IMG/VR virus record: IMGVR_UViG_3300003650_000032
Span: 1-27,682 of that record
DNA length: 27,682 nt
Direction: 5' to 3' (one strand)
Origin: a virus
Part shown: piece by piece, positions 7,078 through 25,807 of the stretch
How the letters are laid out: each line of letters starts with the position of its first letter
How positions within the stretch are numbered: the first letter of the stretch is position 1
Notes under the pieces: model-generated
Told to the model about the DNA's origin: nothing
The model's input: the letters and a program-made list of their open reading frames with translations, nothing else
Databases searched by the model: none
Position numbers and translations under genes: made by a program

Positions 7078-7452
7078 ATGACTACATTCATCGGCTTTAA
7101 CACGCAAAATCAATACAAGAAGTTCACACTCACCGACTTTGAGTTAGTTAAGCGTGATCTACTAAATGCCTTCAATATTCGCCAGGGACAATTACCGGGC
7201 CGCCCCGGATATGGAACTATCATATGGGAATACCTGTTTGAAAATCAAATACAAGCAGTACAGCAAGGTATTGTAGATGAAGTTCAGCGAGTAGCAGGTG
7301 CCGACCCGCGGCTTTTCGTGAATAAGGTCAATGTGTATCCACAATTAAACGGTATGCTAATTGAAATAGAATTGCAGATGGTTGGCACATCATCCGCCGA
7401 ACTATTGTCATTAATGTTTGACCAACAATCTCGCAGCGCCAACTATGTATAA
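7078..7452 (+). CDS. 25: Baseplate wedge protein gp25-like
   Basis: 124 aa, near T4 gp25 (132 aa). Visible family features are the N-terminal helix 'LVKRDLLNAFNIRQGQLPG', the turn 'GRPGYGT' (residues 41-47) before 'IIWEYLFEN', and a DPR triplet (D76-P77-R78) where gp25 and its type VI secretion homologue TssE usually carry EPR. The end is an amphipathic strand region ('GMLIEIELQMV'). In T4-type baseplates gp25 joins two gp6 copies to form the core of each wedge and contacts the sheath start. The gp6-like gene follows after 59 bases, the expected partner order. The ATG sits eight bases after the upstream stop without a clear ribosome site, so re-initiation or a leaderless message are the options. 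Confidence 0.88.
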   Translation: MTTFIGFNTQNQYKKFTLTDFELVKRDLLNAFNIRQGQLPGRPGYGTIIWEYLFENQIQAVQQGIVDEVQRVAGADPRLFVNKVNVYPQLNGMLIEIELQMVGTSSAELLSLMFDQQSRSANYV

Positions 7453-7511: not shown

Positions 7512-10500
7512 ATGGCACAGACCACTAGACAAACGGCAATTTTTGGGGTTGAGGACTGGAAACAGATCTATCAAACCTATCGTGAAGCCGACTTTCAAAG
7601 CTACGATTTTGAAACTCTACGCAAGAGTTTTGTAGACTATCTGCGGTTGTATTATCCCGAAACATTTAACGATTACATTGAATCATCTGAATACATCGCC
7701 TTGTTGGATGTTATTGCGTTTATGGGACAAGCAATTGCTTTCCGTACTGATCTTAACACTCGTGAAAACTATCTAGACACAGCCGAACGCCGTGACTCTG
7801 TTGTAAAACTCGCCGATCTTGTGAGTTACACTGCCAAGCGTAACACCGCATCGCAAGGCATGCTCAAGGTATTTAATATTACCACTACAGAAAATGTAGT
7901 AGATTACAACGGTGTTAGCCTGAGCAACAACACAATCAATTGGGCCGACCCCACAAATTTTGACTGGCTCGAGCAATGGAATGCTATTATAAATGCCTCG
8001 TTAGTAGACAGTCAAAAAGTTGGCAAGCCCGGTAACAAACAAACAATACTAGGTATTGATACTAGCGAATACGCAATTAATTTAGTTCCTGGTGTGTTGC
8101 CAGTCATTCCGTATACTGCAACAGTCGACGGAGTTAATATGCCATTTGATGTAGTAACTGCTACCTCCTCGGGTAGAGACTATGTTTACGAACCAAGCCC
8201 AGTTCCAAATTCTACATTTAATGTAATGTACCGCAACGACAAACTAGGATATCAAAGTTCCAACAACGGTTTCTTCTTTTTATTCAAGCAAGGAACCTTA
8301 CAAAACCAAGACTTTAACTTAGCCGAACGCATTAGTAACCGCACAGTTAACATTAACATCGAAGGGGTTAACAACACCGATCGTTGGCTATTTCAATTAG
8401 ACAATGTGGGCAATATCTCTAGAGAATGGATGTATACCGAAAACGTATATGCTGCGGCCGCCGAACAAGTGTCTGTATTACGACCAATTTATTCAACAAC
8501 AAGTCGCACCAATGATCAACTTACAATAATATTTGGTGACGGGGTGTTTAGTGAAATTCCAGTAGGCATTTTTCGTGCTTATGTTCGTGCATCTAATGGT
8601 TTGCAATACATTATTAATCCTGCAGAAATGCAAAATGTGGTATTGCCTATCAGCTACATAAGCCGTACAGGTAACCTCGAAACAATTACATTTACTTGTG
8701 GTATTACTCAGCCAGTTAGTAATGCGCAATCGCGTGAAAGTATTGAGGCAATTAAACAACGTGCACCTGCTCGATACTACACACAAAATCGAATGGTTAA
8801 TGGCGAAGATTACAACCTTTTCCCGTATACTTTGTACAATTCAATTATCAAAAGTAAAGCATTAAATCGTGCATCAATTGGCACAAGCCGATATCTTGAT
8901 TTAGTTGACAACACAGGAAAATATTCTAGCACAAACACTTTTTCAAGTGATGGCGCAGTCTGGGAAGATAATATTCTTCCTACTATAAACGTTAGTTTGA
9001 CAAACAGAAACGAGATTGCTGATTTTATTTCTAATCAAGTGCAAGCAAATCTAACCGGTCCCACAGTCACACAATTTTACTATGCAAACTTTCCTCGAAT
9101 ATCAGTAAACACCGGGCTAACTGCATTAAGCACATGGCACCAAAGTACCACCCTGTCCAACGAAACCACTGGATATTTTCAAACAGCGCCAGTGGGCGAC
9201 TTACCGCCTGTTCCTATACCGCTAGGAATTTATTACACCACCTTGCAATCATTTAGCTATGTGGTTCCTCGTTGCTCGATTAAATTTGTTGCACCAACGA
9301 TTAACGGCCAGGAGTATTATTTTGATGCTAATAATAGACTCAAACCTGGGCAGCCAACCCGCGCCGACGATCATACAGAGATTTGGGCTAGCCCAACAAA
9401 CATTGTTGGTAATGGGACCAACAACGGTATTGGTAATTTCTCATCGGGTCAAGGTCCGGTGACCCTAAACAATTTTGTGCCAACCGGAGCAATTGTTGAT
9501 AGTATCATTCCAGTTTTTATAACTAACTTATCAATTGCTATTCAACAAGAAATTAGTCAACAAATGTTGTTGTCTCGCAATTTTGGCATTGGCTATGATA
9601 GTACTGGTACAGTGCCGACCAGTGCTGGTGCAGGAACCTGGTATGTTATTACTGACACCAACCTTGCACAAAATGCTACTTGGAGCCAGGAGCATGCTGG
9701 TGACAAGTCAGGCGAAAATCTAGATGCAAGTTGGATGGCTAAGTTTGTTGTTGCAACAGATCAAAATTATCAAGCCACGTTCCGCGGACTTGCATATTAT
9801 TTTGGTAGTGTAATACAAACACGTTTCTTTTACTACGGCAATCAAAAGATTTATGATAGTCGAACAGGAACAACGATCCGTGATTTCGTTAATATACTTG
9901 CGGTGAATACAAAACCAGCTTCTACCTCGCCGCTTACTAGCGATATCTATACTACAATTATTGGACAACCAGTTGAAAGCGACGGATATGTAGATGACTT
10001 CAGGGTACTTATAAGTTATCGTGACAACGATAACGATGGTGTGCCCGACAATCCAGATTTTTTCGAAAACATAGTAGGCCTTACACCACTAGGACGCAAT
10101 GCTGTGTCTGTAAATCCAAAGTCTCCTTGGGTATTCATGCAACGAACAGTTGACTTTGATAATTTACAGCGCGATCTCTTGGTAGAACCTTTAGTGGTCA
10201 ACAGTGATTATCCTACTATCGATGCAATCGAATTAGTTAAATTCCAGTATAGCCCTGGACAAGTGTTCTACGCATATAGCACAGAGATGTTCTATCAACT
10301 TAGTATAAATGTTAATACTGTTCGTATATTAACAGAAACTCCAGAAGGTAGCTGGATTGCTAAAACGGGCAGACAAGGATTGTATTTCCAGTATCGTCAT
10401 AATTCACCGTTGACAAATCGTATTGACCCCGGATCAACTAACATTATTGACATCTACATTGTTGCACAAAGTTATTACACTGCATATCAAAACTGGTTAC

Positions 10501-11012
10501 GTGATACTACTAACACAGTAATGGAGCCACTTATGCCCACAATTGACGAACTTAGTACAGCATATCAAGGACTGCAAGATTACAAGATGTTAAGTGATAA
10601 TGTTGTTGTAAATTCTGTGGTATTCAAGCCGTTGTTTGGTGCAAAAGCGGCAAGTTCGTTACGGGCAACCATCAAGGTCATTAAAGCTGCAAATTCAACA
10701 GCAAGCACAAGCGAAATACAAAGTGCAGTTCTTACATCAATGAATACTTATTTTAGTATAGACGAGTGGAATTTTGGGGACACATTCTATTTCTCAGAAC
10801 TAGCGGGATATCTGCATAAAAATCTAGGAACTATTATCAGTTCAGTTGTATTAGTACCGCTAGACATACAAAAGTATTTTGGTGATCTATACGAGATTCG
10901 TGCAGAACCCAATGAAATATTTGTCAATGGTGCCACCATTGATAATATTATTGTAATTGAAGCATTAACAAGTACAAACTTGCGAACTTCACCAGGTAGC
11001 GGAGTAATTTAA
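7512..11012 (+). CDS. 6: Baseplate wedge protein gp6-like
   Basis: 1166 aa. The N-terminus has the gp6 signature 'FVDYLRLYYPETFNDYIESS' then 'EYIALLDVIAFMGQAIAFR' (residues ~37-78), like the YP..FNDW..S..G.ALLDLLAY stretch of T4 gp6. A baseplate-J-type region follows: 'IIFGDGVFSEIPVGIFRAYV' (~338-357) and 'ESIEAIKQRAPARYYTQNRM' (~409-428). The C-terminus has 'YFGDLYEIRAEPNEIFVNG' (~1123-1141). gp6 forms the iris-like inner ring whose dimers with gp25 hold the hub and open when the tail contracts. It is nearly twice T4 gp6 (660 aa). The extra length lies mainly in residues ~450-850 and includes a DxDxDG loop (838-849). The stop overlaps the next ATG by one base. Confidence 0.9.
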   Translation: MAQTTRQTAIFGVEDWKQIYQTYREADFQSYDFETLRKSFVDYLRLYYPETFNDYIESSEYIALLDVIAFMGQAIAFRTDLNTRENYLDTAERRDSVVKLADLVSYTAKRNTASQGMLKVFNITTTENVVDYNGVSLSNNTINWADPTNFDWLEQWNAIINASLVDSQKVGKPGNKQTILGIDTSEYAINLVPGVLPVIPYTATVDGVNMPFDVVTATSSGRDYVYEPSPVPNSTFNVMYRNDKLGYQSSNNGFFFLFKQGTLQNQDFNLAERISNRTVNINIEGVNNTDRWLFQLDNVGNISREWMYTENVYAAAAEQVSVLRPIYSTTSRTNDQLTIIFGDGVFSEIPVGIFRAYVRASNGLQYIINPAEMQNVVLPISYISRTGNLETITFTCGITQPVSNAQSRESIEAIKQRAPARYYTQNRMVNGEDYNLFPYTLYNSIIKSKALNRASIGTSRYLDLVDNTGKYSSTNTFSSDGAVWEDNILPTINVSLTNRNEIADFISNQVQANLTGPTVTQFYYANFPRISVNTGLTALSTWHQSTTLSNETTGYFQTAPVGDLPPVPIPLGIYYTTLQSFSYVVPRCSIKFVAPTINGQEYYFDANNRLKPGQPTRADDHTEIWASPTNIVGNGTNNGIGNFSSGQGPVTLNNFVPTGAIVDSIIPVFITNLSIAIQQEISQQMLLSRNFGIGYDSTGTVPTSAGAGTWYVITDTNLAQNATWSQEHAGDKSGENLDASWMAKFVVATDQNYQATFRGLAYYFGSVIQTRFFYYGNQKIYDSRTGTTIRDFVNILAVNTKPASTSPLTSDIYTTIIGQPVESDGYVDDFRVLISYRDNDNDGVPDNPDFFENIVGLTPLGRNAVSVNPKSPWVFMQRTVDFDNLQRDLLVEPLVVNSDYPTIDAIELVKFQYSPGQVFYAYSTEMFYQLSINVNTVRILTETPEGSWIAKTGRQGLYFQYRHNSPLTNRIDPGSTNIIDIYIVAQSYYTAYQNWLRDTTNTVMEPLMPTIDELSTAYQGLQDYKMLSDNVVVNSVVFKPLFGAKAASSLRATIKVIKAANSTASTSEIQSAVLTSMNTYFSIDEWNFGDTFYFSELAGYLHKNLGTIISSVVLVPLDIQKYFGDLYEIRAEPNEIFVNGATIDNIIVIEALTSTNLRTSPGSGVI
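10023..10058 (+). other. DxDxDGxPDxxD calcium-loop-like motif in the gp6-like protein
   Basis: Residues 838-849 read DNDNDGVPDNPD, the spacing of thrombospondin type-3/EF-hand-like calcium loops (acidic residues at 1, 3, 5, 9 and 12 with Gly at 6). It lies in the region that has no counterpart in T4 gp6. Metal binding is inferred from the motif only. Confidence 0.5.
11001..11004 (+). promoter_or_regulatory. Ribosome binding site GGAG of the giant gene
   Basis: GGAG lies inside the last codons of the gp6-like gene, seven bases before the ATG at 11012 that overlaps the gp6 stop (TAATG). It supports this start and tight coupling. Confidence 0.6.
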
Positions 11013-14000
11013 TGGCTAGAGTTAGAAGTGTAGATTTTCTTCCTGAAATTTTTCAGACTGATGCTAACAAGCAATTCTTAGCAGCAACTCTTGACCAGTT
11101 GATCCAGGAACCTAAATTTAAAAAGACACAAGGTTTTATTGGTCGCACTGTTGGGCCAGGAGTAAACCCAAATGACAAGTATGTTATTGAACCTAACAAA
11201 ACTCGCGCAAACTATCAATTAGAGCCGGGAGTTATTAGTCTTGATCCGGTTAACACAGGTGCAATAAAGGATGCAATAACATACCCCGGTATCAATGATG
11301 CTCTTGAATTTCAGGGTGCAATAAGCGGCCGACCCGATCGCATGTATACAAGCGAATATTATACCTGGGATCCGTTTGTTGACTTTGATATATTTGTGAA
11401 TTTTAGTCAATATTATTGGATTCCTGCTGGCCCTGCGGTAGTTGATGTTTCTACTACAGGTATACCACTTAGTGAAAATTTTGCAGTGACTCGTGCCAAT
11501 GGAGTGTACACATTTTCCGGACAAACTGGAGAAAATCCGGTCATTACCCTTGTTAGAAACGGAAATTACACATTTCAAGTTGCACAAAACAATGTCGAAA
11601 CTATAAATTTCAGAGTAGGCCGACAAGGAGTTACAAGTTATCAAATTGATTTTATAACTAACCCTGCATTAACTTTAATAAGAGGTAATACTTATGTGTT
11701 TACCCTTACTCAGTTAACTGGATTTCCTTTCTGGATCAAAACAGCAGCAACTACCGGCACAGGTGATTCCTATAATGCCGGTGTTACAAACAACGGTGCA
11801 ATGATAGGCAATGTAACATTTATAGTGCCACAAGATGCGCCGGATACATTATATTATTCGTGCGAAACACAATCGTTGATGAACGGGCAAATCAATATCG
11901 TCAATGGTGTTGCCGGAACTGGTTCTAAATTTTGGATTCAAACTAACCCCGGCATCTCGGGAAAAAATCCAGTAACCCCAAACATCAGCAGTCGCGAAGT
12001 ACTAGGTGTTTATAATAACGGTGTTGACTTAGGGACAATAAATTTCAATGTTCCTGCAAGTACAGCCCAGGATTTTTATTACAATCTCAACAATTTTGGT
12101 ACCGTTGATCTTATATGTAATTTGAGATATGATCAAATACAAGGTGCTTCGTTAGATGAATTCATTGCTAGATATGGCGGCATAGATGGTATTACCAATC
12201 TAAACACTCGCACCTTGATATTTACTAATCGAGCGAGTGGTGAGGATGGCGGCTGGATAGCTCAGAGTCCATTTGATCCACTAAATCGAGATGATGCAAA
12301 TAACGGCCTGCCCGGTAGTTTTGATAATTTAGGCTATGCTTATACTACAGAAGTCCCCGAAGATCAATACTATAATGTCTGGCAAATAAGTTATGTTACT
12401 GTAGATGGTATTAGATATCTACATCTAAGTAGCGCAGGTACTATAAACACTCTAGATAAATTTTCAATAAGATACGGAACTGTATATTCAACAACAAACT
12501 GGTACAAACTTGAATCTGGTGTGTTTGTAGAAATCCCTGTGTTGTCAGCTACATCGGACACTTTATATTATCAAGATAGCACCGATCCAGAAATCTTCGG
12601 TACAATTCGTTTGATTGATCAAACAGCAAGTAATACACTTTATATCGATGATATTATTGGTAATAAAAATTATACTAGCCCCATTGGTGTTGTTTTTACC
12701 AATGGTTTAAAAGTTCGCTTTCCTGGAGACGTTGTTCCTGCTGCTTATAGCACCAGGTCAGTTACATTAACTTGTACATCAACCGCCGCTGGCGTGAATA
12801 TTATTACCGGAGACGATACCTCTAATTTAATTATCGGGCAAACAATTGAATTCTATAGCACACCGTTTGGCGGTGTGTCCGAAGGCATAATCTATTATGT
12901 TCGGTCGATATTTAGCAGTACACAATTTTCAATATCAACGATTCCAAATGGTCCGGCAGTAACATTGACTTCTGCTGTTGGCACAATGATTGGAGTTGCA
13001 AGCCAAGCACCCGAATACTATGTAAGTGGAGTTGGGACGGCAATTGAGTTATTGCCGGTTACTGATTTTATTACTCCAGAAGTTATTACTACAGAAAATG
13101 CACAATTAGGTCAACTTGATTACCTTACTATTAATCGTGCCAGCAAAGATCTAAATGCATGGTCACGCAGCAATCGTTGGTTTCATATTGATGTTTTAAA
13201 TGCTACTGGAAAATATAACGATGCTCCGGTTGTTCTTGATAACAACTTCCGGGCAAAACGACCCGTTTTACAATTCAACAGTAACATTAGAATGTTTAAC
13301 ATGGGCACAGCAGGAAAAAGCCCAGTGAACACAATTGACTTCGCCGAAACCGACGCCTTTAGCAACATTGAAGGTAGCACAGGATATAGTGTAAATGGAT
13401 ATACACTAGTAGACGGCAGTAGAGTTATTTTTGCTGCCGACCTAGATGTCGATGTTAGGAATAAAATTTATATAGTTAATTTCATTACGCCTGACACAGT
13501 GGATCCTTTAATTGCTCAACCAATTATAAATCTAGTAGAAGCAGCAGACGGTGCAGTATTTGCAGATCAATGTACTGTATGTTTAAGCGGTGAACAAGTT
13601 GGCATTAGCTATTGGTTTGATGGAGTTGATTGGAACCAGGCACAACTAAAACAAAGTGTGCAGCAAACTCCTTTGTTTAACATATATGATATCAACGGTT
13701 ATAGCTTTAGTAATAGAACAATATATCCCAGCTCAACTTTTATAGGAAGTAAGTTGTTTAGTTATACAACAGGATATGGAATAACAGACCCTATTTTAAA
13801 ATTTAAATTAAAGTATCTTACTCTTAATAATGTAGGAGATATTGTTTTTGACAATAATTTGTATACAGATACATTTGTGTATGTTACTAACAACCAAAGC
13901 ACTATAAAGCAAATTAGTTCGGGCTTTGTTTACGAGTACGCATCAAGAGAAATATACAAAAGATTGTTAGGTTGGCAAACTGCGGTAGTCCCAACACCAA

Positions 14001-17000
14001 TGCAACAACAATTTAAATTTGTTTATGCCGGAGTACCATTACAACTCGACTGTAAAGTTTTGCCTAACAATATAACTATTGTTCCGTCGATTAAGGTATT
14101 TGTTGGCTCTGCGTTCCAAGATCCGTCTACTTATTCGATAGTAACAACAACTAACAGCACAACAATTACATTTAATACAGTTCATATAATTGGAGATGTT
14201 ATCGAAGTTGAAGCGTTAAGCAACCAAACTAGTAAAGTGGCATTTTATCAAGTTCCGATAAATCTTGAAAATAACCCATTAAACAACAATAGCAGTTTTT
14301 TTACCCTTGGTACTGTTCGTACACATTATGGAAGTATCTGTCAGAACTTAACTAACTTAATCGGTACTATAAATGGTGCAAACAACACTCGTGACCTTGG
14401 CAACATTGTTCCATATGGCCAAACTATTTTGCAACAAAGTGCTCCGTTGACAATTGCCGGATACTTCTTGCGTTCCATTGACTATAATATTTTTGGAGCA
14501 CTAGAATACAATAGCCGAGAGTATCAAAAGTTTAAAAATAAATTGTTAGAATCTGTTACAACTCAAACTATTCAATTTGAAAATGCAGGCACAATTCTTG
14601 ACACTGCGATTGCAAACATTACATTAGATCGCAGCGACCTTAATCCATTTTATTGGAGTGACATGTTGCCATCTAGTGCAGGATACACTAAAACAATATA
14701 TACTGTTTCGTATACCACTGGCAATACATTCGACACTATACAAGTTTATAACTATACTAGTGCTAATTATTTAGGTATGAATGTTTACATCAATGGTCGT
14801 ATTTTAGAAAGAGACTTTGAATATTCAGTTGCTACAGACGGTCCGCGTATTACAATTCTTGAACCTTTGTACAGTACACTAGTAAACGGCAATGTAGTTA
14901 CATTACAAGAATATTCTACGACACAAGGCACATTTATTCCTAACACCCCAACCAAACTAGGATTATATCCATCCTGGAGACCAGAAATTACATCTGTAAA
15001 AACCAGCAGCGGAGAACAACTAGTAATTAAAGGGCACGACGGGAGCGAAACTCCTGTTTTTGGAGATATTCGAGACGAAGTATTATTAGAGTTTGAATCT
15101 AGAATTTACAACAACCTAAAATTAGACGGAAATTCTGTACCACTTACTATCGTAGATGTATTACCAGGACAGTTTCGTGACACAGGATATAGTATTAGTG
15201 AAATTAATAGTATTTTAAACACTAATTTTCTAACTTATGTTGGCTGGAACAAATTAAATTACAATGATCAAAATTATATAAGTGGTAATCCATTTACATG
15301 GAACTACAGCACGGCTCAGGACAAACTCAATAATCAAAATTTAATGGGCAATTGGCGTGGTATCTATCGTTATTTTTACGATACACAACAACCTGAACGT
15401 ACACCTTGGGAAATGATTGGCTTTGAGATTAAACCCGTCTGGTGGGAAATAACTTATGGCCCTGCTCCTTATACACAAGACAACTTGGTTCTATGGGACG
15501 ACTTAGAATTGGGTATAGTAAGAGATCCAGCTGGCACATACATCTTGCCTCAATATGCAAGGGCGGGACTAGTTACAGTATTGCCAACTGGCACAGAAGG
15601 CGCATTGGTGCCACCTATTGATTCCGTAGTAGGTGACTATAGTTCTCAAGCATCATTTATTAAAAGCTGGTCTCCCGGTGACGGCGGTCCTGTTGAGGCA
15701 GCGTGGTGGAACTCTAGTGACTATCCATTTGCGGTCATGCGTTTGTTAGCATTAACACGCCCCGCTAACTTCTTTGCGTTATTTGCAGATAGAGATCTTT
15801 ATCGCTACGAGCGCGAATTTGAACAGTACTTGTATCAAGATCGTTATAGATTAAATGCCAACAAAATTCAAGTATACGGCAATGGTGTTAGCAAAGCAAG
15901 TTACATCAATTGGATAATTGATTATAATCGTCAAATAGGCGAAGATTCAACCAAGGCGCTGGAAAAAGATCTTGCTAATTTAGATGTAAGATTATGTTAC
16001 CGCATGGCTAGTTTTAGTGACAAGCAATACATTAAGATTTATACAGAAAAGGCTAGCCCTAACACCTTAAACACAACATTGTTGTTGCCGGACGAGAGCT
16101 ACGACTTATTAGTGTATAAAAACCAACCGTTTGATCGTAGTTTGTACAGCAGTGTAGTTATACAGGTTGTAAGCGGTGGGTGGGCGGTATTTGGATATAG
16201 TACTACCCGTCCTTATTTTAATATATTGAGCAGTATACCAGTAGGACAATTCCGAACATTTACAGTAGCTGAAAAATCTATCCAGGTCCCGAAGAATTAT
16301 TCTAATACCGTTGTACAGGTGCCATATGGTTTTGTGTTTACCACAGCATCAGCCGTTGCCGACTTTTTGTTAAGTTACGGAAAATTACTAGAAAACCAAG
16401 GATTTACATTTACAAATCAAACCAATGGTTATATTATGGATTGGGACCAGATGGTAGAAGAATACTTGTACTGGTCACACCAAGGATGGGGCGAGGGAAG
16501 TATAATAAATCTTAACCCACTAGCTGACCGCCTAACAATAACAAAAGCGCAGGCAGTTGCAGATAGTGTAGTGGCACAGACTGCCGAACAAGTTCTAATA
16601 GATCAAAACCGTCGCGATTTTCCAGTACGAGATCTTAACATTATTCGTGAAGATAATACATTTACTATTCAACCATTGAGCAATCAAAGCCTTAGCTTTA
16701 TTGACATGCGTTTCACTAGTTATGAAAACATGATCGTGTTGAATAATGTAAGTTTGTTTGGCGATTTAATTTACGAACCAACGACAGGTGCTCGCCAGAG
16801 TCGTTTAAGTCTGGTGGCTGTTGAAACTACCGACTGGAACGGTACATTAAATGCACCTGGTTTTATTTTAAACCAAGACAATGTCAAAGAATGGACTGGA
16901 TTGCGCATATATCCAAAAGGCGAGCTTGTTAAGTACAAAGGTTCATACTGGTCGGCCGCGTCTATGGTACAACCTAGTATTAAATTCAATTACAACAATT

Positions 17001-20000
17001 GGAATCAAAGTGACTATACATTAATCCAACAAGGGTTATTGCCCAACATTACTAACAAAGCTGACCAATTGGCCAATAGTTACAATATCAATAATGCTAA
17101 TATCGAAAGTGACAATGATCTGTTGAGTTATGGATTAATTGGGTATAGACCTCGTCAATATCTTGCAGCATTGAATCTTAGCGATGTTAGCCAGCTTAAC
17201 ATTTATCGCGAGTTCATTGGGGCAAAGGGAACTATGCTCAGTGTTGATTTATTGGGTCGTGCTAACATTGGTAAAGAAGTTGCCGACTATACAATTTATG
17301 AAAACTGGGCAGTGCAGCGCAGTGTGTATGGTGCCAATGCTAATCGAAGTTTCTTTGACTTGCGATTAAATCGCGGCAATCTCACAAGTAATCCTAATAT
17401 AGTACAAATTATTACACCTAGTCAAGCTAATTCAGCAGACCAGGCTATATTGCTTAGTAGTCTATGGAAGAGTAGTTTTGTGCCAACCACTACACAAATT
17501 CTTCCGACAACTACTACATTACCTACTGACATTGCACTACCTACTGCCGGGTATGTTAACCTCGACGAGGTTGATTTATCGGTATTTGAATTGTCTAATC
17601 CGTCGGTGCTTAGTGCAAATCTAAATTCGATTAAAACAGGTACTAGTATCTGGGTTGCAAAGGTAAATGATTACGATTGGAACATTTATCGTGCTCATGC
17701 AGTTCCCGGGGTAATCAACCATGTGTGCGACAATCTAAACGGAACTAGTATTGTAAGGTTCACAAAGCAGCACGGCTTAAGCGTCGGCAACACGTTGATT
17801 ATTAGATTCTTTGATAGCGAAGTGGACGGAGTTTACAAAGTATTATCTATTCATGATCTAAATACAGTAACTATTGCATTTAGTTTTGACGGTGACCGCA
17901 CAGTTGCAAATGGCAACGGTATTGGATATACACTACAAACCATGCGGGTGTCGCAGGCCAGTAATATAAATAACTTGTCTTATACTAAACAGATGCTCCC
18001 TGGCACTAAAGTTTGGGTTGACAACAACGGCAAAGGGCAATGGGAAGTATTAGAAAAACAAAAGCCATTTGTTCCAACCAAAGATTTGCATTCAGTATCA
18101 CCAGCACCCGGCGATGCTTTTGGAGCGAGCGTGGCACAAACATCTAATAGATCTGCTATGTTCATAGGCAGTCCTAACTATGGTGCTGGCACAGGTGCAG
18201 TTTATCTCTATGTTAAAGAAGATAGTAATCAATACAAACCAGTAAGTCCTATACAAGGGCAAGATACTATATTAACATTGGGCGCAACCGGGACACGAGG
18301 TTACGGTAATGCTATAGATGCAGGTAATACGGCATACGCAATAGCAGGTGCTAGTGCAAGTAATGGCCCAACAGGCTTACCTAATAATGGGTATGCAGCA
18401 ATACTTTATAGAGATCCTGCAGCAGGTGCTAATAACACTAGCCCATGGGTCACCAGTCAACTGTTGACATTACCTGGTACTACCCCGCCAGATGACCCCG
18501 GTGCAGGTGAGTTTGGTTACAGTGTTGCAATGAGTTTAGACGAACGCTGGATGTACGTTGGTGCACCAGGATTGAATAAAGTGTTTGCATATGGCCAAGT
18601 GTTAAACGAACTACAAAAGTTAACATACCTTGCCGACGGCACAAGTGCTATTGCGATCATAAGTTCAATTATTCAAATAGACGACCCTGATCAAATTACT
18701 GTTGTAAAAAACGGTGAATTGTTGACGTTAACTACTAACTACAGTGTAGACTTAGACCCAAGTTTTACTGAAGTAACTTTTGTTGTTACACCAGCAGCCG
18801 GCGACAGAATTATTATTAACAGAAGAAATGACTATGCTTTTAAGGTTGAGGACGTTCCAGAAACCTTTCCTGTAGCACAATATTTGTTTACTGCTACAAG
18901 CAACATTGAGTCAATCACTGTAACAGTTAATTCTGTATTGCAACGACCAAACATTGATTATACTTGGGATGGAACTTCTCTTACTTTTGCCGAAGGGCAT
19001 GAACCAATACTTGATGATATAGTATTAGTAAGTTCGCAAAATTATTATGAACTTGCTGGCACTATAATTTCAGACTCAGAATTAATTGCAACTGACAGAT
19101 TTGGACATAGTATACAATGCTCAACCGACGGTCGACAGGTTGTTATTGGATGTAAAAATGCCACAGTTGATAGTTTAACTGAAGCAGGAAAAGTATACGT
19201 GTTTGATCGTAACGTCCAACGTTTTATCCAACAAACAAAGACTACAGACCCGTATACCATTACTGTATTGGGCACTGTAATTGCACCAGTTAGCGTGTCG
19301 TTAAACAATATATTCTTAACAAATCAAGACAATGGTATTGTTAGTGCCCAAAATACGTTCAGCGTAGATGGAAACAACATTACTATTATAAACAATCTAT
19401 CAGTTGGTGATGTAATCGAAATTGAAACCAACCAGTTTGTACAACAACAAATTATTACACAAGACACAGTTTCAGAATTTACAAACTTTGGTCAAGCATT
19501 AGACTTGTGCCCGTATAACTGTAGTCTATATGTTGGTGCGCCACAAGACAATGTCACAGCATGGCAAGGCGGCGTAGTACAACGCAGTGTTAGTCAGGCT
19601 AGAATATATGGAACAATTACTGCAACTGTTGCTAACCCTGTACTTGAGGTTGGGGACACGCTGAGAGTAAACAACATTGATTTCTACGTTCCAGACGCCG
19701 TGCTGCCTACCCCTGGGGTTCCGGGCGTATCTAGATTACAAGGCCTTGCCAAGAATATCAACGCCATCAAATCTAATGCCACCGCAAGCGTGTCCCCTGC
19801 CGGGGTCTTAACTATCTATGTTACAAATACAAATGCTGCACCAATCGGTAACAAATTACTAGTAACCCCAGGTAGTATTGGCACAGCATTTGACAATCCA
19901 TTTTACAATCTTGGATTTGAGACATTTGTGTTTACACAAACAATTACAAGTCCTTATCCAGTGGATTTTGCAGGCTTTGGTAGTTCGGTGGCAATCGATG

Positions 20001-23000
20001 ACACTGCAATAAATCTTGTAGTAGGTGCTCCACAAGGCAGCTTGTATTTGCCAAACACATTTGATTATAATACAGTTACAAAAGTACCTGGTACTACTGT
20101 TGACGGAAACTCGACTACTTTCTTTAGTCCTGTAGTGCAACGCGGCGCAGTATATACATATGATTACATGCCAAGTGCCAACGACATTATTTCTAATCCA
20201 GGTAAGTTTATATTTGGCCAACAAGTTGAATCTAATATTATTCAACCATATAGCATACAAAGTCTACCCGGCATAATTCCAGAAGTTGTTGGAGGGATAC
20301 CACTATGGGGACCAGGATATGGTACCGCAGTAAGTTATAACTCTGGTGTGTTGGTAGCAACAGCACCGGGAAATGGTGCTGCATATGGTTCATCATTTGT
20401 GTTTGAAAATCCTACTCGTGCTCCTGCCTGGAACCCAATTCGTGTACAACAACCGGTGGTCGATATTAGACTATTACGCAGTGTATACATGTATGATAGA
20501 ATCACCGGTGCCAAAAGTGAATTCTTTGATTTCTTTGACCCACTACAAGGCAAGATTCTTGGCGCAGCCGCAAAAAATCTTGATTATATTGGGGGAGTAG
20601 ATCCTGCAAACTATAATATTGGCACAGTTAATAACTTTGGAAATACATGGGGCACAGAACATGTCGGCGAAATGTGGTGGGATATTAGCACCGTGCGTTT
20701 TATTGATCCTAACCAGAATAATATTACATATACTAGCCGTCGTTGGGGGCAAGTATTCCCCGGTTCCAACGTGGATGTATATCAATGGATTGAGAGTGCT
20801 ACAGCACCAGCAAACTATCCCGGTCCCGGCACACCGTATACTGCCAACAGCTATGTAATAAAAACACAGCTGAAACAAAGTGGTACCTTTGCCACCACAT
20901 ACTATTTCTGGGCTTCTGGCATTATTGAAACATATGGGCCACAAGCTAAAACATTAAGTGCTGCCACAGTTGCACAATATATTCAAGACCCTAAAAATAG
21001 TGGCATTGCGTATATTGCACCAATTAATGCAAGTACCATTGCTATCTATAATGGTCTGGAGTTTATAAATGCCACCGATACAATTATCAGTATTGAGTTT
21101 GATCAAACTTTAACGGCTGCTAACGTACATGCCGAGTTTGAATTAATAGCTCAAGGCCAACCGAGCGCATTCCTCAGTGATAATTTATACCGCAAACTCC
21201 AAGATAGTTTCTGCGGAGTTGATACATATGGACACACTGTTCCAGATCCTAACTTACCCCAAAGTCAGCGATATGGTGTACAGTACCGCCCGCGCCAAAG
21301 TATGTTTGCAGATAGATTTACAGCACTTAGAAACTATATTCAACGCGCTAACTCTGTATTTGCTTTGTACTCCATAGTCGAAAACCGCACATTTACTTTG
21401 TTAAATAGTGCCGAATCGGAGCCGGGCTCGAATACAGGTGCATGGAATCTGCGCGTAGCGAATTTAGAAATTCTAGGATTCCAAAATATCTACACTGTCT
21501 CACTTGGATACAAATATCTTGTTGTAACAGACAGTAGCCAACGCGGGTTATGGACTATCTACACAGTAGAAATATCACAAACTGATCTTGATGTTCGAGT
21601 ACTAGTATTAACGCAAGTACAAAATTACAACACACCTAACTATTGGAGCTATATCAATTGGTATGCACCGGGCTATAATTCCAGTTCCAAGATTGTTGCC
21701 GACGTTCCTAATTATGCTAGCTTGGCCACAATATCTGTTCCTGTAGGCAGTAGTGTTAAAGTAATCTCAAATGCTCGGGGAAAATTTGAAATATACTTAA
21801 AAACAAACATTGGGTGGGACAGGGTTGCATTGCAAGATGGTACCATTGAGATTAGTGCAGAAATTTATGATTATGCGTTGGGACGTTTTGGATTCGATGT
21901 CGAAGTATTTGATTCACAATACTTTGATGAAGAGCCAGTGATAGAAACTCGCAAAATAATTCAGGCCATCAATGAAGAACTATTAGTTGGAGATTTATTA
22001 GTTAAACGTAATGAATTATTGACCTTGATGTTTAACTTTGTATTAAGCGAATTTGCTGCTCCGGAGTGGCTAATGAAAACGTCATTGATTGATGTAGATC
22101 ACAAAATTCGCGAGTTAGTGCCATTCCAGAACTACATTAGAGATAATCAAGACTTTGTTAGCGGGTATATCCAAGAAGTAAAACCGTACCATGTACAAGT
22201 GAGAGAATTTAACTTGAAATATTCCGGTATTGACGAATATTTTGGAGACACAACCGACTTTGACATCCCTGCGTTTTATAACACGACGCTAATAACGCCG
22301 CAGTATGTAAGTCCAATTTTGTTGCCATATGCGCATAGTGCCCCGCAAGCGTTTAATTTCATAAGCGATACTCCTGCCGACAGCACAGTATGGAGTAGAT
22401 TGCAATATAACCAATGGTATAACAATTATACATTGTACGTTGATTCTATCTATGTGGCCAATCGAGGTTCGGGTTATACTGTACCTCCGGTTCTTTATAT
22501 TGTCCCAGCAGACGGCGACACCACTGGTTCTGGGGCCACCGCTGTAGCAACATTAAATTCGCAAGGCCAGGTAGTTGATATAAACGTAACCAATGCAGGT
22601 AACGGATATACACAAACTCCAATGGTTGTATTTGTCGGAGGTAACGGTATTAGTGCATTAGCATATCCTATTATGGCTAATAACTTAGTTCGTAGTTTCC
22701 GTACTGTAATAAAATATGATCGTTATGAATATAACAGTTTAGTTGAAACATGGAATCCCGTCGGAACTTATGTAAATGGCACATTGGTTCGTTATGCTGA
22801 TCGAGTATGGCAGGCAAAGAGCTATGGCGGCAGCACATCCGTTAGTGGTCCAGAATTTAATCTCGAAGACTGGGTCGAAATTGATGCTGCTGCGCTAAGT
22901 GGTGTAAATCGTACAATGGGCCTATACATACCCGGAGTTAATTCACCAGGATTAGACTTAGGATTGTTAATTGATGGCATAAATTATCCTGGAGTTCAAG

Positions 23001-25807
23001 TTTGGGGAGATTATTTCTTAGGAGAAGGAAGCAATCCTGATACCCCTACTATAACATGTACATACACTGAAGGCACTAAAATTACCTGCAATGAAACTTT
23101 GCGCCTAGTAGTCAACGCCCAGATTAAGTTTTACGGAGAAACATTCGGCGGGATTATTGAAGGACAAAACTATTTTGTTAGCAGTGTATTAGATGCAACG
23201 CATTTTACAATTAGTATTATAGAAAACAATCCGCCTATACCGTTGATAACTGCTAGCGGTACTATGATAGCGTATGTACCGGAACCAGCAGATGCACTGT
23301 ATGCTAGTAGTTTTTCTGATCAATATCTTGGACTTCGCCCAACTGATATTAATGTCGACGGCGGCCAATTCATTGGCCCATACGAGGGACATGCTCCAGA
23401 AGAATTAGTAAATGGTAGCGAATTTGACACACTTGATTTGCGTGTATATACCCGCCCGGGCAGTGATTGGACTCACAACGGGCATGGATTTAAAATTGGC
23501 ACAGTTAATTGGGTGTATGAACCGACCGTAACTAATACATATAGTTGGGCTGATGCAGTATTGTATCCGTTTGAAATCATTGTAACAAATACTTCTACCG
23601 GATTGGTGCTTGCCCGAGCAATTAACTACACAGTTGATTGGGCTATGCAAACTATTTCTATATTGAGTAATGTAACAAGCAACGATATTATTGGTATTTC
23701 TGTTTTTGAAATTGGCGGTGGCAGTCAATTGTTCCGCGGAACATATACTGGGACAGATGTTGGTGATTCGGTGATCATTCCTGTTAACGCAGCAGAGATA
23801 TACGAGTTGCTGGTATTCCGTAACGGTGTGCTAAACACCAACGTTACATGGAGTGCATATATTCCAAGTACCGACTGGGATATCATTATCAATTATCAAA
23901 TACAATCGGTTGTTAATTACCTAGGAGTATACTACAGAGCAATACGTACCGTACCTGTTGGTATTGTAATAACAAATGCTACTTATTGGCTTGTTTATGT
24001 TCCTACTACACAATCCATAGTCAATTTTCATACTACGTATGGTGCTAACGATGGTATTTCTTTAGTAGCAATGGGAACAGAAACACCACAGTACAGTTGG
24101 AGTAACCCACAGACACAATATATTGTAGCAGACCAAGGCATTGTTAATAGTCGCACATTGAACTTGTCTAATAGCATAGCCGGAACTAACCCAGCCAACC
24201 TAATCGTTACACGCAATGGTGTAAGATTACGCCCAGCAGACGGAATTGAATGGATTGGTGATGCCACAAGTTTTAGTTTTGGATTGCCGCAACGTGGTGG
24301 ATATAGCCAAGAATTAATTAATGCTTATACTGATATAACCGTGTGGGTAGACAACGAATTGCAAGTTCAAAACTATGGTCCTGTTGTCGGAGACTACTAT
24401 GTTACTAACTACACAGGGAGCAACACACCCGGAAGACAGATATTATTCTTTACCCCGCCTGCTAGTGGTGTACAAATTTTAATTTCAGTTGACACTGAAT
24501 CATTATATAGTGTAATTACACAAACTAATCAAATTCAATTAGCATTACTTCCCAACATTGGAGATGTGTTTGCAGTAACTACTTGGAATGACACTGCGCA
24601 ACAGAATATTTTAACATTGGTATTCCAGGGCCCAACAACTAAAGGTATTACACTAAATGAACCGTATGACAGTACTGATTACGACTTGGCTGTAGAAGGA
24701 GCAATAGATGCACCGGGCAGCTATGACTTTACTTTAGGTATATTAATACCAATTAATGATTTTAATCTTGGGCGAGATGGACAATCTGCAAATCGTTTGT
24801 GGGTAACACTTGACGGGTATCGTTTATCCGAAGGCCAAGACTACACAGTCGACGGACAATACTTGATATACACTAAAGGAGCCATTGGTGCGGAACAAGT
24901 TATGGTAATAACAGAATTTACCCAAAGTCAAACACCGGAAGCAATAGGGTTCCGTATATTTCAGGACATGGCCGGAAATCAAACTACCTACCGTATCACA
25001 GAGGATACCACAACATATCTAACCCAAGAAGTGACCGCAACTGATGATGTTATACATGTTAAAAATGCCGGCAATTTAAGTGAGCCCGTTCTTGATACCG
25101 GTTACTTTGGTATTATTACTATCGACGGCGAACGCATATTGTATCGTGTTCGTGATATTACTAACAATATTGTAAGTGGCCTACACCGCGGTACTGCTGG
25201 TACTGCTGCTGCAAGTCATGAAATTAATGCCGATGTATATGAGTTAGGTGTTGGCAATAGAATGAAACAGACCGATCAGAATTACATTGTTAGTAACACT
25301 TATACCGGCGATGGTTCCACTGTTGTATTCTATGGCCCTAACATAGATAATGATAACTTTGATGGTACATCTGCACAACTTACCGCGAGTATAGAAGTAT
25401 ACATTGGGGGTATTCGTGCAGTTACAGGATGGCCGACTAACAATATAGTAGTTGGAACAACATACACTATTGCTAGTATAGGAACTACTAATTGGCACAC
25501 TGTTGGCGTACCGAGCAATGTTATACCAATGGTTGGCTATGTGTTTACTGCATCTGCAAATGGCGCAGGGACAGGCATAGTTGGCTCCACACTTGCTAGC
25601 TATTATTATGCTATTACTGTAAATGACCCAATAACTGTAACATTTATTACCACAACTGATCTACTAGCACCACCAGTTGGGCAAGCAGTTACCTTGTTAC
25701 AACGCCGCAGCACAACTTGGTATGCACCAGGAGTAGGAACCCCAAGCGACGGTGTAGCGCTCCAAGAAACAAACACAGAAGCTGCAAGGTTCTTGCGTGG
25801 ACTTTAA
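11012..25807 (+). CDS. Giant 4931-aa modular baseplate structural protein in the gp7 position
   Basis: One uninterrupted frame of 14.8 kb (product about 540 kDa), starting in overlap with the gp6-like stop. The N-terminus ('VRSVDFLPEIFQTDANKQFL', 'NYQLEPGV', 'YYTWDPFVDFDIFVNFSQYY') is typical of long structural proteins I recall from T4-like cyanophages. Further scaffold stretches are 'LTINRASKDLNAWSRSNRWF' (~707), 'VIKGHDGSETPVFGDIRDEV' (~1338), 'WEMIGFEIKPVWWEITYG' (~1466), 'VGEMWWDISTVRF' (~3218), 'IRELVPFQNYIRDNQDFV' (~3702) and a C-terminal 'LQETNTEAARFLRGL'. Spliced into this are a nested cupredoxin-like pair (~175-366), two copies of an FGG..EG module, a seven-motif FG-GAP propeller (~2364-3137), two GxGYT repeats, three carbohydrate-binding-like modules, several NG-hairpin beta domains and a YTI cassette. 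T4 gp7 (1032 aa), which follows gp6, is the outer wedge backbone; this protein occupies that slot, but homology to gp7 itself is not shown. A host- or surface-contacting role is inferred. Confidence 0.85.
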   Translation: MARVRSVDFLPEIFQTDANKQFLAATLDQLIQEPKFKKTQGFIGRTVGPGVNPNDKYVIEPNKTRANYQLEPGVISLDPVNTGAIKDAITYPGINDALEFQGAISGRPDRMYTSEYYTWDPFVDFDIFVNFSQYYWIPAGPAVVDVSTTGIPLSENFAVTRANGVYTFSGQTGENPVITLVRNGNYTFQVAQNNVETINFRVGRQGVTSYQIDFITNPALTLIRGNTYVFTLTQLTGFPFWIKTAATTGTGDSYNAGVTNNGAMIGNVTFIVPQDAPDTLYYSCETQSLMNGQINIVNGVAGTGSKFWIQTNPGISGKNPVTPNISSREVLGVYNNGVDLGTINFNVPASTAQDFYYNLNNFGTVDLICNLRYDQIQGASLDEFIARYGGIDGITNLNTRTLIFTNRASGEDGGWIAQSPFDPLNRDDANNGLPGSFDNLGYAYTTEVPEDQYYNVWQISYVTVDGIRYLHLSSAGTINTLDKFSIRYGTVYSTTNWYKLESGVFVEIPVLSATSDTLYYQDSTDPEIFGTIRLIDQTASNTLYIDDIIGNKNYTSPIGVVFTNGLKVRFPGDVVPAAYSTRSVTLTCTSTAAGVNIITGDDTSNLIIGQTIEFYSTPFGGVSEGIIYYVRSIFSSTQFSISTIPNGPAVTLTSAVGTMIGVASQAPEYYVSGVGTAIELLPVTDFITPEVITTENAQLGQLDYLTINRASKDLNAWSRSNRWFHIDVLNATGKYNDAPVVLDNNFRAKRPVLQFNSNIRMFNMGTAGKSPVNTIDFAETDAFSNIEGSTGYSVNGYTLVDGSRVIFAADLDVDVRNKIYIVNFITPDTVDPLIAQPIINLVEAADGAVFADQCTVCLSGEQVGISYWFDGVDWNQAQLKQSVQQTPLFNIYDINGYSFSNRTIYPSSTFIGSKLFSYTTGYGITDPILKFKLKYLTLNNVGDIVFDNNLYTDTFVYVTNNQSTIKQISSGFVYEYASREIYKRLLGWQTAVVPTPMQQQFKFVYAGVPLQLDCKVLPNNITIVPSIKVFVGSAFQDPSTYSIVTTTNSTTITFNTVHIIGDVIEVEALSNQTSKVAFYQVPINLENNPLNNNSSFFTLGTVRTHYGSICQNLTNLIGTINGANNTRDLGNIVPYGQTILQQSAPLTIAGYFLRSIDYNIFGALEYNSREYQKFKNKLLESVTTQTIQFENAGTILDTAIANITLDRSDLNPFYWSDMLPSSAGYTKTIYTVSYTTGNTFDTIQVYNYTSANYLGMNVYINGRILERDFEYSVATDGPRITILEPLYSTLVNGNVVTLQEYSTTQGTFIPNTPTKLGLYPSWRPEITSVKTSSGEQLVIKGHDGSETPVFGDIRDEVLLEFESRIYNNLKLDGNSVPLTIVDVLPGQFRDTGYSISEINSILNTNFLTYVGWNKLNYNDQNYISGNPFTWNYSTAQDKLNNQNLMGNWRGIYRYFYDTQQPERTPWEMIGFEIKPVWWEITYGPAPYTQDNLVLWDDLELGIVRDPAGTYILPQYARAGLVTVLPTGTEGALVPPIDSVVGDYSSQASFIKSWSPGDGGPVEAAWWNSSDYPFAVMRLLALTRPANFFALFADRDLYRYEREFEQYLYQDRYRLNANKIQVYGNGVSKASYINWIIDYNRQIGEDSTKALEKDLANLDVRLCYRMASFSDKQYIKIYTEKASPNTLNTTLLLPDESYDLLVYKNQPFDRSLYSSVVIQVVSGGWAVFGYSTTRPYFNILSSIPVGQFRTFTVAEKSIQVPKNYSNTVVQVPYGFVFTTASAVADFLLSYGKLLENQGFTFTNQTNGYIMDWDQMVEEYLYWSHQGWGEGSIINLNPLADRLTITKAQAVADSVVAQTAEQVLIDQNRRDFPVRDLNIIREDNTFTIQPLSNQSLSFIDMRFTSYENMIVLNNVSLFGDLIYEPTTGARQSRLSLVAVETTDWNGTLNAPGFILNQDNVKEWTGLRIYPKGELVKYKGSYWSAASMVQPSIKFNYNNWNQSDYTLIQQGLLPNITNKADQLANSYNINNANIESDNDLLSYGLIGYRPRQYLAALNLSDVSQLNIYREFIGAKGTMLSVDLLGRANIGKEVADYTIYENWAVQRSVYGANANRSFFDLRLNRGNLTSNPNIVQIITPSQANSADQAILLSSLWKSSFVPTTTQILPTTTTLPTDIALPTAGYVNLDEVDLSVFELSNPSVLSANLNSIKTGTSIWVAKVNDYDWNIYRAHAVPGVINHVCDNLNGTSIVRFTKQHGLSVGNTLIIRFFDSEVDGVYKVLSIHDLNTVTIAFSFDGDRTVANGNGIGYTLQTMRVSQASNINNLSYTKQMLPGTKVWVDNNGKGQWEVLEKQKPFVPTKDLHSVSPAPGDAFGASVAQTSNRSAMFIGSPNYGAGTGAVYLYVKEDSNQYKPVSPIQGQDTILTLGATGTRGYGNAIDAGNTAYAIAGASASNGPTGLPNNGYAAILYRDPAAGANNTSPWVTSQLLTLPGTTPPDDPGAGEFGYSVAMSLDERWMYVGAPGLNKVFAYGQVLNELQKLTYLADGTSAIAIISSIIQIDDPDQITVVKNGELLTLTTNYSVDLDPSFTEVTFVVTPAAGDRIIINRRNDYAFKVEDVPETFPVAQYLFTATSNIESITVTVNSVLQRPNIDYTWDGTSLTFAEGHEPILDDIVLVSSQNYYELAGTIISDSELIATDRFGHSIQCSTDGRQVVIGCKNATVDSLTEAGKVYVFDRNVQRFIQQTKTTDPYTITVLGTVIAPVSVSLNNIFLTNQDNGIVSAQNTFSVDGNNITIINNLSVGDVIEIETNQFVQQQIITQDTVSEFTNFGQALDLCPYNCSLYVGAPQDNVTAWQGGVVQRSVSQARIYGTITATVANPVLEVGDTLRVNNIDFYVPDAVLPTPGVPGVSRLQGLAKNINAIKSNATASVSPAGVLTIYVTNTNAAPIGNKLLVTPGSIGTAFDNPFYNLGFETFVFTQTITSPYPVDFAGFGSSVAIDDTAINLVVGAPQGSLYLPNTFDYNTVTKVPGTTVDGNSTTFFSPVVQRGAVYTYDYMPSANDIISNPGKFIFGQQVESNIIQPYSIQSLPGIIPEVVGGIPLWGPGYGTAVSYNSGVLVATAPGNGAAYGSSFVFENPTRAPAWNPIRVQQPVVDIRLLRSVYMYDRITGAKSEFFDFFDPLQGKILGAAAKNLDYIGGVDPANYNIGTVNNFGNTWGTEHVGEMWWDISTVRFIDPNQNNITYTSRRWGQVFPGSNVDVYQWIESATAPANYPGPGTPYTANSYVIKTQLKQSGTFATTYYFWASGIIETYGPQAKTLSAATVAQYIQDPKNSGIAYIAPINASTIAIYNGLEFINATDTIISIEFDQTLTAANVHAEFELIAQGQPSAFLSDNLYRKLQDSFCGVDTYGHTVPDPNLPQSQRYGVQYRPRQSMFADRFTALRNYIQRANSVFALYSIVENRTFTLLNSAESEPGSNTGAWNLRVANLEILGFQNIYTVSLGYKYLVVTDSSQRGLWTIYTVEISQTDLDVRVLVLTQVQNYNTPNYWSYINWYAPGYNSSSKIVADVPNYASLATISVPVGSSVKVISNARGKFEIYLKTNIGWDRVALQDGTIEISAEIYDYALGRFGFDVEVFDSQYFDEEPVIETRKIIQAINEELLVGDLLVKRNELLTLMFNFVLSEFAAPEWLMKTSLIDVDHKIRELVPFQNYIRDNQDFVSGYIQEVKPYHVQVREFNLKYSGIDEYFGDTTDFDIPAFYNTTLITPQYVSPILLPYAHSAPQAFNFISDTPADSTVWSRLQYNQWYNNYTLYVDSIYVANRGSGYTVPPVLYIVPADGDTTGSGATAVATLNSQGQVVDINVTNAGNGYTQTPMVVFVGGNGISALAYPIMANNLVRSFRTVIKYDRYEYNSLVETWNPVGTYVNGTLVRYADRVWQAKSYGGSTSVSGPEFNLEDWVEIDAAALSGVNRTMGLYIPGVNSPGLDLGLLIDGINYPGVQVWGDYFLGEGSNPDTPTITCTYTEGTKITCNETLRLVVNAQIKFYGETFGGIIEGQNYFVSSVLDATHFTISIIENNPPIPLITASGTMIAYVPEPADALYASSFSDQYLGLRPTDINVDGGQFIGPYEGHAPEELVNGSEFDTLDLRVYTRPGSDWTHNGHGFKIGTVNWVYEPTVTNTYSWADAVLYPFEIIVTNTSTGLVLARAINYTVDWAMQTISILSNVTSNDIIGISVFEIGGGSQLFRGTYTGTDVGDSVIIPVNAAEIYELLVFRNGVLNTNVTWSAYIPSTDWDIIINYQIQSVVNYLGVYYRAIRTVPVGIVITNATYWLVYVPTTQSIVNFHTTYGANDGISLVAMGTETPQYSWSNPQTQYIVADQGIVNSRTLNLSNSIAGTNPANLIVTRNGVRLRPADGIEWIGDATSFSFGLPQRGGYSQELINAYTDITVWVDNELQVQNYGPVVGDYYVTNYTGSNTPGRQILFFTPPASGVQILISVDTESLYSVITQTNQIQLALLPNIGDVFAVTTWNDTAQQNILTLVFQGPTTKGITLNEPYDSTDYDLAVEGAIDAPGSYDFTLGILIPINDFNLGRDGQSANRLWVTLDGYRLSEGQDYTVDGQYLIYTKGAIGAEQVMVITEFTQSQTPEAIGFRIFQDMAGNQTTYRITEDTTTYLTQEVTATDDVIHVKNAGNLSEPVLDTGYFGIITIDGERILYRVRDITNNIVSGLHRGTAGTAAASHEINADVYELGVGNRMKQTDQNYIVSNTYTGDGSTVVFYGPNIDNDNFDGTSAQLTASIEVYIGGIRAVTGWPTNNIVVGTTYTIASIGTTNWHTVGVPSNVIPMVGYVFTASANGAGTGIVGSTLASYYYAITVNDPITVTFITTTDLLAPPVGQAVTLLQRRSTTWYAPGVGTPSDGVALQETNTEAARFLRGL
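11531..12109 (+). other. Nested pair of cupredoxin-like beta domains in the giant protein
   Basis: Residues ~217-300 form one domain: 'NPALTLIRGNTYVFTL', 'GFPFWIKT', 'GVTNNGA', 'NVTFIVPQDAPDTLYYSC', 'MNGQINIV'. It is flanked by the two halves of a similar domain: 'NPVITLVRNGNYTFQVAQ' before (~175-192) and 'KFWIQTNPG', 'VYNNGVDLGTINFNVP', 'AQDFYYNL' after (~306-360). The order of matching pieces shows an inner copy sitting in a loop of an outer copy. In the inner copy the Cys (C284) and Met (M290) positions of a copper site are present, but the His positions read Phe (F238) and Gln (Q287), so copper binding is unlikely. Confidence 0.6.
12752..13009 (+). other. Inserted FGG..EG beta module, copy 1
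   Basis: Residues ~582-666 hold 'QTIEFYSTPFGGVSEGIIYY', 'VRSIFSSTQFSIST' and 'SAVGTMIGV'. They interrupt what otherwise reads as one scaffold stretch ('GLKVRFPGDVVPAAYS' before, 'YYVSGVGTAIELLPVTDF' after). A second copy is at 23030-23290. Confidence 0.6.
16904..17020 (+). other. Carbohydrate-binding-like module, copy 1
   Basis: Residues ~1965-2003 read 'YPKGELVKYKGSYWSAASMV' followed by '...NNWNQ'. The pattern G-x-x-V-x-Y-x-G-x-x-Y/W-x-A with a closing NW resembles chitin-binding type 3/CBM5-12 modules common in phage tail proteins. Sugar binding is not shown. Confidence 0.45.
18101..20420 (+). repeat. Seven FG-GAP/integrin-alpha-type blade motifs (beta-propeller)
   Basis: Seven segments share an FG/YG-x-[SA] opening, a buried strand with xxxVGAP-like end and, in most, a GxVYxY-like strand. 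They are 'GDAFGASVAQ' (G2367) with 'MFIGSPNYG' and 'GAVYLYVK'; 'TRGYGNAIDAG' (T2428); 'GEFGYSVAMS' (G2499) with 'WMYVGAPG'; 'DRFGHSIQCS' (D2695) with 'KVYVFDR'; 'TNFGQALDLC' (T2824) with 'LYVGAPQD'; 'AGFGSSVAID' (A2987) with 'LVVGAPQGS' and 'GAVYTYDYM'; 'GPGYGTAVSY' (G3100) with 'VATAPGNG' and 'SSFVFEN'. Seven is the number in integrin-alpha propellers. Spacing is ~62-71 residues for the first blades, then 113-195 where other domains are inserted. Confidence 0.7.
22457..22650 (+). repeat. Two GxGYT-xxP-x-V repeats in the giant protein
   Basis: 'GSGYTVPPVLYI' (from residue 3819) and 'GNGYTQTPMVVFVGG' (from 3863) are spaced 44 residues apart, with 'ATAVATLNSQGQVVDINVTN' between. This Gly-rich beta repeat occurs in many phage fibre and baseplate proteins. 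Its ligand is unknown. Confidence 0.6.
22751..22882 (+). other. Carbohydrate-binding-like module, copy 2
   Basis: Residues 3914-3957 read 'WNPVGTYVNGTLVRYADRVW' then 'QAKSYGG' and a closing 'LEDWVEI'. It has the W..G.Y..G.LV.Y...W.A......W order of CBM5/12-like modules, and is the best of the three copies. Confidence 0.55.
23030..23290 (+). other. Inserted FGG..EG beta module, copy 2
   Basis: Residues ~4007-4093 hold 'QIKFYGETFGGIIEGQNYFV', 'SSVLDATHFTISII' and 'TASGTMIAYV', matching copy 1 at 12752-13009 piece by piece. They sit between 'GVQVWGDYFLGEG' and 'ASSFSDQYLGLRPTDINVDG', which look like one interrupted scaffold segment. Confidence 0.6.
23891..24003 (+). other. Carbohydrate-binding-like module, copy 3 (weak)
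   Basis: Residues ~4294-4331 read 'QSVVNYLGVYYRAIRTVPVG' and end in 'NATYWLVYV'. V-x-Y-x-G-x-Y-Y-R-A with a closing YW fits the same module type, but the N-terminal W/G is missing. Confidence 0.4.
25433..25597 (+). other. YTI-IGTTNW cassette inserted in the C-terminal beta domain
   Basis: Residues ~4808-4862 ('TTYTIASIGTTNWHTVG', 'VGYVFTASANGAGTGIVG') form a small Gly/Thr-rich domain type that recurs in phage tail proteins. They divide 'EVYIGGIRAVTGW' from 'YYYAITVNDPITVTFITTTD', which together would make one hairpin domain. Confidence 0.6.

Follow-up and report, generated by a model that had tools for sequence, protein, structure and literature searches.

Known cupredoxins, among them rusticyanin, AcoP, plastocyanin and the domain of Hyphomicrobium nitrite reductase, stand alone or in tandem and carry copper ligands. 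The inner domain described here has the same predicted fold over residues 195-299 of a giant phage protein, but it interrupts another domain and has lost the ligands. Its closest described relatives, the nearest of them about 47-52% identical to it, are domains of cyanophage tail proteins (phrog_677, P-SSM2, P-SSM5, Bellamy), and the C-terminal part of the profile of phrog_677, a gp9-like baseplate wedge tail fiber connector, matches residues 180-298 with its positions 289-410 of 412. In the cyanophages, however, the domain is terminal or flanked by linkers and keeps all four ligands, and the rest of the protein is not common to the protein studied here. The body of our protein is orthologous instead to phrog_10938 proteins, namely those of PA5oct (gp355), Atu_ph07, SCTP-2 and Vibrio phage 2.275.O, which, unlike it, are without the entire outer domain that hosts the insertion.

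A survey of ECOD found insertions in 20% of multidomain proteins and reported that, of 48,551 insertion events, 65.8% join different homology groups (PMC13114784). By subtraction, about one third of the events join domains of one homology group, so insertion into a homologous domain is not new in itself (PMC13114784), and an earlier note on this DNA, which had called the insertion of a fold into itself rare, put the matter too strongly. The order A1-B-A2 is the same here as in the surveyed domain-in-domain insertions, and the insert has 112 aa where the median of the survey is 115 residues (PMC13114784). The survey is structural; the present case additionally offers relatives with an empty site, a single clade and a host that appears to carry two inserts. 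Ig-like modules of phage virion proteins are also mobile beta-sandwiches, of a different fold, and the likeness to them is one of analogy, not membership (PMC5259590). No paper on cupredoxin insertions in phage proteins was found among the open-licence papers searched. The unusual features of this locus are the full set of states (outer domain absent, uninterrupted or nested), the inserted form in a single clade, the recognisable donor family with intact metal ligands, and the two-insert host.

The giant protein and its neighbourhood

The window, meaning the whole stretch of DNA analysed, comprises the 27,682 bases of one IMG/VR virus record, and the source of its 4,931-aa ORF is an uncultured jumbo-type phage (Table 1). 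The phrog_10938 'virion structural protein' profile matched the ORF with E 1.6e-65 over residues 1-1000 and E 1.7e-226 over the remainder. Jumbo phages with orthologues of the ORF include PA5oct, Atu_ph07 and SCTP-2; Rak2-like and 121Q-like phages encode orthologues of other parts of the giant protein, and the inserted form is present in two records longer than 340 kb. Upstream of the ORF lie matches to a baseplate hub/gp5-type protein (3726-5228), to gp25 (7078-7452) and, at 7512-11012, to a subunit of the baseplate wedge. The orthologues of PA5oct and Phosso likewise have an upstream neighbour with a baseplate wedge annotation. These gp25-like and baseplate wedge/hub neighbours suggest that the giant protein is located at the baseplate, and the single pointer to its presence in the virion is the note ESI-MS/MS on the record of the PA5oct orthologue (gp355).

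Pfam gave no match within the first 1000 residues of the protein, and the FG-GAP repeat (PF14312, window ~19085-19204) was the sole Pfam family in residues 1001-4931. A pattern like 'FGG..G..Y(Y/F)V.S......FSIS' was seen at 12758-13012 (residues ~583-667) and at ~23024-23266 (residues ~4005-4085); self-BLAST of the giant protein did not link these two stretches at E 0.01. The first of them is missing from the uninterrupted orthologue L074, and it therefore looks like a further inserted module.

Table 1. Features of the giant ORF, with window coordinates and the evidence for each assignment
Feature	Residues	Coordinates	Strand	Evidence or remark
ORF of 4931 aa, giant virion/baseplate-associated structural protein (phrog_10938), putative	1-4931	11012..25807	+	Orthologues in PA5oct, Phosso, Atu_ph07, SCTP-2
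Conserved N-terminal body	1-150	11012..11461	+	Common to jumbo phages without outer domain
Outer cupredoxin-like domain, first piece, strands A-B	163-192	11498..11587	+	Uninterrupted-orthologue profile, median 36.7 bits vs 20.2 for inner A-B
Insert, inner cupredoxin-like domain (fold core 195-299)	193-304	11588..11923	+	Empty-site orthologues, predicted fold
Outer domain, second piece, strands C-E	305-348	11924..12055	+	Uninterrupted-orthologue profile, median 83 bits vs 29 for inner C-E
Putative second insert, E-F loop of outer domain	349-511	12056..12544	+	120-357 aa in relatives; no Pfam match
Outer domain, third piece, strands F-G, probable: SDTLYYQDSTDPEIFGTIRLID	512-540	12545..12631	+	Profile-profile decoy test

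The insert, the empty site and the third outer piece

The earlier note had read the span 11531-12109 (residues 174-366 of the ORF) as a cupredoxin-like domain lodged in a loop of its own paralogue. The ten motifs that it quoted each occur once and in the order given, and the nesting of a cupredoxin-like domain inside a homologous cupredoxin-like domain was confirmed as real. The inner copy aligns with the outer pieces by both Smith-Waterman and profile-profile comparison. Against the stitched outer domain it scored 99 by Smith-Waterman (2000 shuffles: mean 31.1, sd 5.7, maximum 55), and its comparison with uninterrupted outer domains gave a probability of 99.0% and E 2.4e-18 over 60 columns. 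When the proteins of the window were searched with one inner-domain profile, the ORF was matched at residues 156-193 (profile positions 7-43), 193-304 (1-112), 329-361 (62-94) and 510-540 (80-110). The three partial matches are individually weak (i-E 0.013, 0.00019 and 0.0077), and the order of first part, whole, middle part and last part is that expected of a nest. The inner domain proposed at residues 217-300 held, with wider bounds (Table 1), and so did the two flanking outer halves; a further outer piece, at about residues 512-540, had been overlooked. In the phage collection searched, no record covered 80% of the nested region.

Relatives do carry the outer domain uninterrupted at the same site. 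Among the 110 distinct orthologues of the first set, the site is empty in 58 and filled in 50, 2 sequences are truncated, and a partial insert occurs in none. A domain insertion, taken as the order A1-B-A2 with an uninterrupted host at the same site in relatives, is thus documented by 58 distinct orthologues. L074 was the first of the uninterrupted kind, found in the first scan, and a scan with the uninterrupted form returned 345 relatives, of which 80 were retained. A wider set holds 136 inserted records; the length of the insert is 112 aa in 134 of these and 113 aa in 2. In a tree of the body without the domain, for which phages that have no outer domain served as outgroup, the inserted sequences form one clade (SH-aLRT 100) and the uninterrupted ones another (92), so one event, gain or loss, suffices. 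The two forms are sister groups in this tree. In the short domain tree the inserted form falls inside the uninterrupted one, a topology that the body data reject (p 0.004, thinned body tree). A single insertion, a gain, is perhaps likelier than a single loss from the sister clade; by logic an uninterrupted host must predate the insert. No close direct repeats that would point to a recent mechanism flank the insert, those found being short and scattered.

As bounded in the earlier note, the outer domain is without its last two cupredoxin strands. In all sampled orthologues with an outer domain, a stretch like SDTLYYQDSTDPEIFGTIRLID lies about 165 residues downstream, at the spacing of cupredoxin F-G strands. 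It might be argued that this stretch is a separate element whose likeness to strands F-G arose by chance or convergence, the outer domain then being a truncated cupredoxin with one insertion; the model of the L074 uninterrupted core without it has a reasonable mean confidence (84.1), and a second 'VP' ahead of the TLYY motif is unexpected for a simple insertion after strand E. We consider this unlikely, because adding residues 512-540 to the stitched outer profile raised its score by 40 against the inner profile and by 35 against the cell/cyanophage profile, whereas decoy windows away from these residues gained 2.3-2.5 on average and 10.5 and 10.9 at most. The spacing equals that of the LYYxCxxHxxMxGxIxI strand pair, and in PA5oct, SCTP-2 and Vibrio phage 2.275.O the end stretch and the outer domain are absent together. 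The stitched outer domain matched the cell/cyanophage profile with an hhalign probability of 99.5% and E 3.9e-23 over 90 columns. By homology over all strands the outer domain appears to be cupredoxin-like, and the pairing of its strands in space would be the one that the sequence profiles suggest. A structure search with the L074 core, modelled without strands F-G, found no match, a result that we put down to the missing strands and do not take as a sign of a new fold.

With strands F-G assigned to the outer domain, the residues between its second and third pieces are taken to be another insert, this time in the E-F loop, and the outer domain would thus host two insertions. Residues 355-508 show no resemblance to cupredoxins (hhalign probability 0.2%), and no phage record matched residues 397-560. 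The idea of a complete third cupredoxin domain within residues 355-545 was rejected, as only the last 24 columns align. In one sequence (L191) the outer F-G strands are followed immediately by a further insert, at least several tens of residues long, which the other sequences displayed beside it do not have. In Phosso and Atu_ph07 (L262 and L266) a different module of about 80 aa follows residue ~150, where the outer domain sits. Such different modules mark the site as a hot spot that accepts unrelated domains, and the outer domain itself is probably an accretion on the body.

Origin, fold and metal ligands of the inner domain

The earlier note implied that a fold had been inserted into itself. 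That the insert is homologous to its host was borne out; that it is a duplicate of the host was not. A copy of the outer domain placed into its own loop in this lineage would agree with the shared fold, with the collinear alignment and with the identity of 34% between the inner domain and its own outer domain, and a clade of the inner with all outer domains is compatible with the data (p 0.48), leaving room for a very old common origin within phages. The median identity of the inner domain to cell/cyanophage domains is nevertheless higher, at 45%. In the domain tree all outer domains, from inserted and uninterrupted phages together, split at 100/100 from a group that unites the inner with the cell/cyanophage domains, and the inner clade has 99/96. 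A clade of the inner domain with the outer domains of the inserted lineage was rejected (p-AU 0.0028), so the insert is not a host copy made at the lineage split. True self-insertion in this lineage is therefore improbable, and the inner domain is, as judged from sequence, a homologue of the host and not a copy of it made when the lineage split. A donor copy was sought elsewhere in 14 large, possibly incomplete contigs that bear the insert, and only the insert itself was found, mostly together with part of the adjacent outer domain.

The cell/cyanophage relatives of the inner domain are four-ligand domains from cyanophage tail proteins, Flavobacteria and marine archaea. Those from Flavobacteria and marine Euryarchaeota (L235-L254) have all four copper ligands, and in the one of them that was scanned no Pfam cupredoxin model scored above cut-off; they may constitute an unnamed cupredoxin family.

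The nested model covered 258 residues and was built with 31 sequences, the last two outer strands lying outside the modelled stretch. Its confidence is highest in the inner domain (ten-residue pLDDT blocks of ~81-96, mostly above 90) and lower in the outer pieces (~58-87). Residues 195-299 matched the cupredoxin domain of 2dv6 (Hyphomicrobium nitrite reductase) with VIA-align Z 10.9 and rmsd 1.9 A over 90 residues, and rusticyanin with Z 10.8 (Foldseek E 4.3e-5); rusticyanin and AcoP took the top Foldseek ranks. As modelled, the inner domain is a Greek-key beta sandwich of the kind seen in solved cupredoxins. Sequence searches of the PDB with the inner and outer profiles gave nothing credible. 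The predicted viral structures (BFVD) nearest to the inner fold are mostly cyanophage tail-fibre and connector proteins, and a resemblance is also seen in small 'beta-sandwich proteins' from records of Pithovirus and Marseillevirus. The possibility of an intein or some other self-splicing element was set aside on general grounds, since a 112-aa cupredoxin fold makes up the insert.

Two domains in tandem would be a very improbable description of the region, and so would an interlocked pair, with the leading A-B strands joined to the inner C-G strands and the following A-B strands to the outer ones. The A-B strands of the two copies are so similar that one automatic alignment of the nested with the uninterrupted form, made without long flanks, paired the uninterrupted A-B with the inner copy; this alignment was discarded for modelling. 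But the pieces follow one another as A-B, full domain, C-E and F-G, and half-profiles from uninterrupted outer domains scored the outer half above the inner half in 50 of 50 inserted sequences. This held for both halves, which were therefore not assigned arbitrarily. The inner stretch was also modelled as a complete cupredoxin with high confidence. The alignment of inner with outer, the uninterrupted relatives and the prediction of the inner domain as one compact cupredoxin fold all speak for a nested and not a tandem arrangement, as the earlier note had it. Automatic domain finders miss host domains of this type: Pfam was silent here, and the alignment without flanks mispaired the strands.

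Of the 27 cell/cyanophage domains, 26 have the complete ligand set H, C, H, M; no domain among the 40 distinct inner and 78 outer ones does. The position of the first His is occupied by F, Y, S or L in all 136 inserted sequences, that of the second by Q in 129 and by another residue, never His, in the rest, and that of the ligand Cys by S or A in 93. That the insert still binds copper, in a redox or metal-capture role, is scarcely credible with both His replaced in every inserted sequence and Cys in so many, for all its cupredoxin fold and the Cys284 and Met290 retained in the window's copy. Measured by the His-Cys-His-Met set, the inner domain does not qualify as a blue (type 1) copper protein. 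With the four ligands gone from both copies, structural or adhesive modules of the virion surface are likelier than electron carriers, and from the family context such a role is the most likely one for both. Ig-like modules on phage virion proteins have been proposed to aid contact with the host surface (Fraser et al. 2006, as cited in PMC5259590).

Proposed growth of the giant protein

Taken as a whole, a cupredoxin-like insert in the B-C loop of a homologous domain, a second insert in the E-F loop and modules that do not bind copper make up a reading that we hold to be highly probable. The donor unit would have been a compact cupredoxin-like beta-sandwich, 112 aa with its linkers, of the kind known from cyanophage tails and from secreted bacterial and archaeal proteins. 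It would have entered a giant phage structural protein once and in frame, lodging in the B-C loop of a cupredoxin-like domain of which it is a distant homologue. The outer domain could still close, with strand E followed by the variable second insert in the E-F loop and then by strands F-G. A baseplate-associated virion protein may in this way grow by taking up compact beta-sandwich modules as structural or adhesive decoration.

Living lineages show the outer domain absent, uninterrupted or nested, the type of the inserted domain is known and its length hardly varies, so that it can be tested when and why a fold accepts a homologue in one of its loops. Structural proteins of giant phages reach thousands of residues, and the route to such size is seldom clear. 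It is conceivable, with somewhat less than an even chance, that we see a Matryoshka of three levels within one fold, in which the outer domain entered a variable site of the body, its B-C loop later receiving a homologue and its E-F loop an unrelated module, and in which the similarity of host and insert possibly eased acceptance. If true, this would be a case of the stepwise growth of a giant virion protein through repeated insertion.
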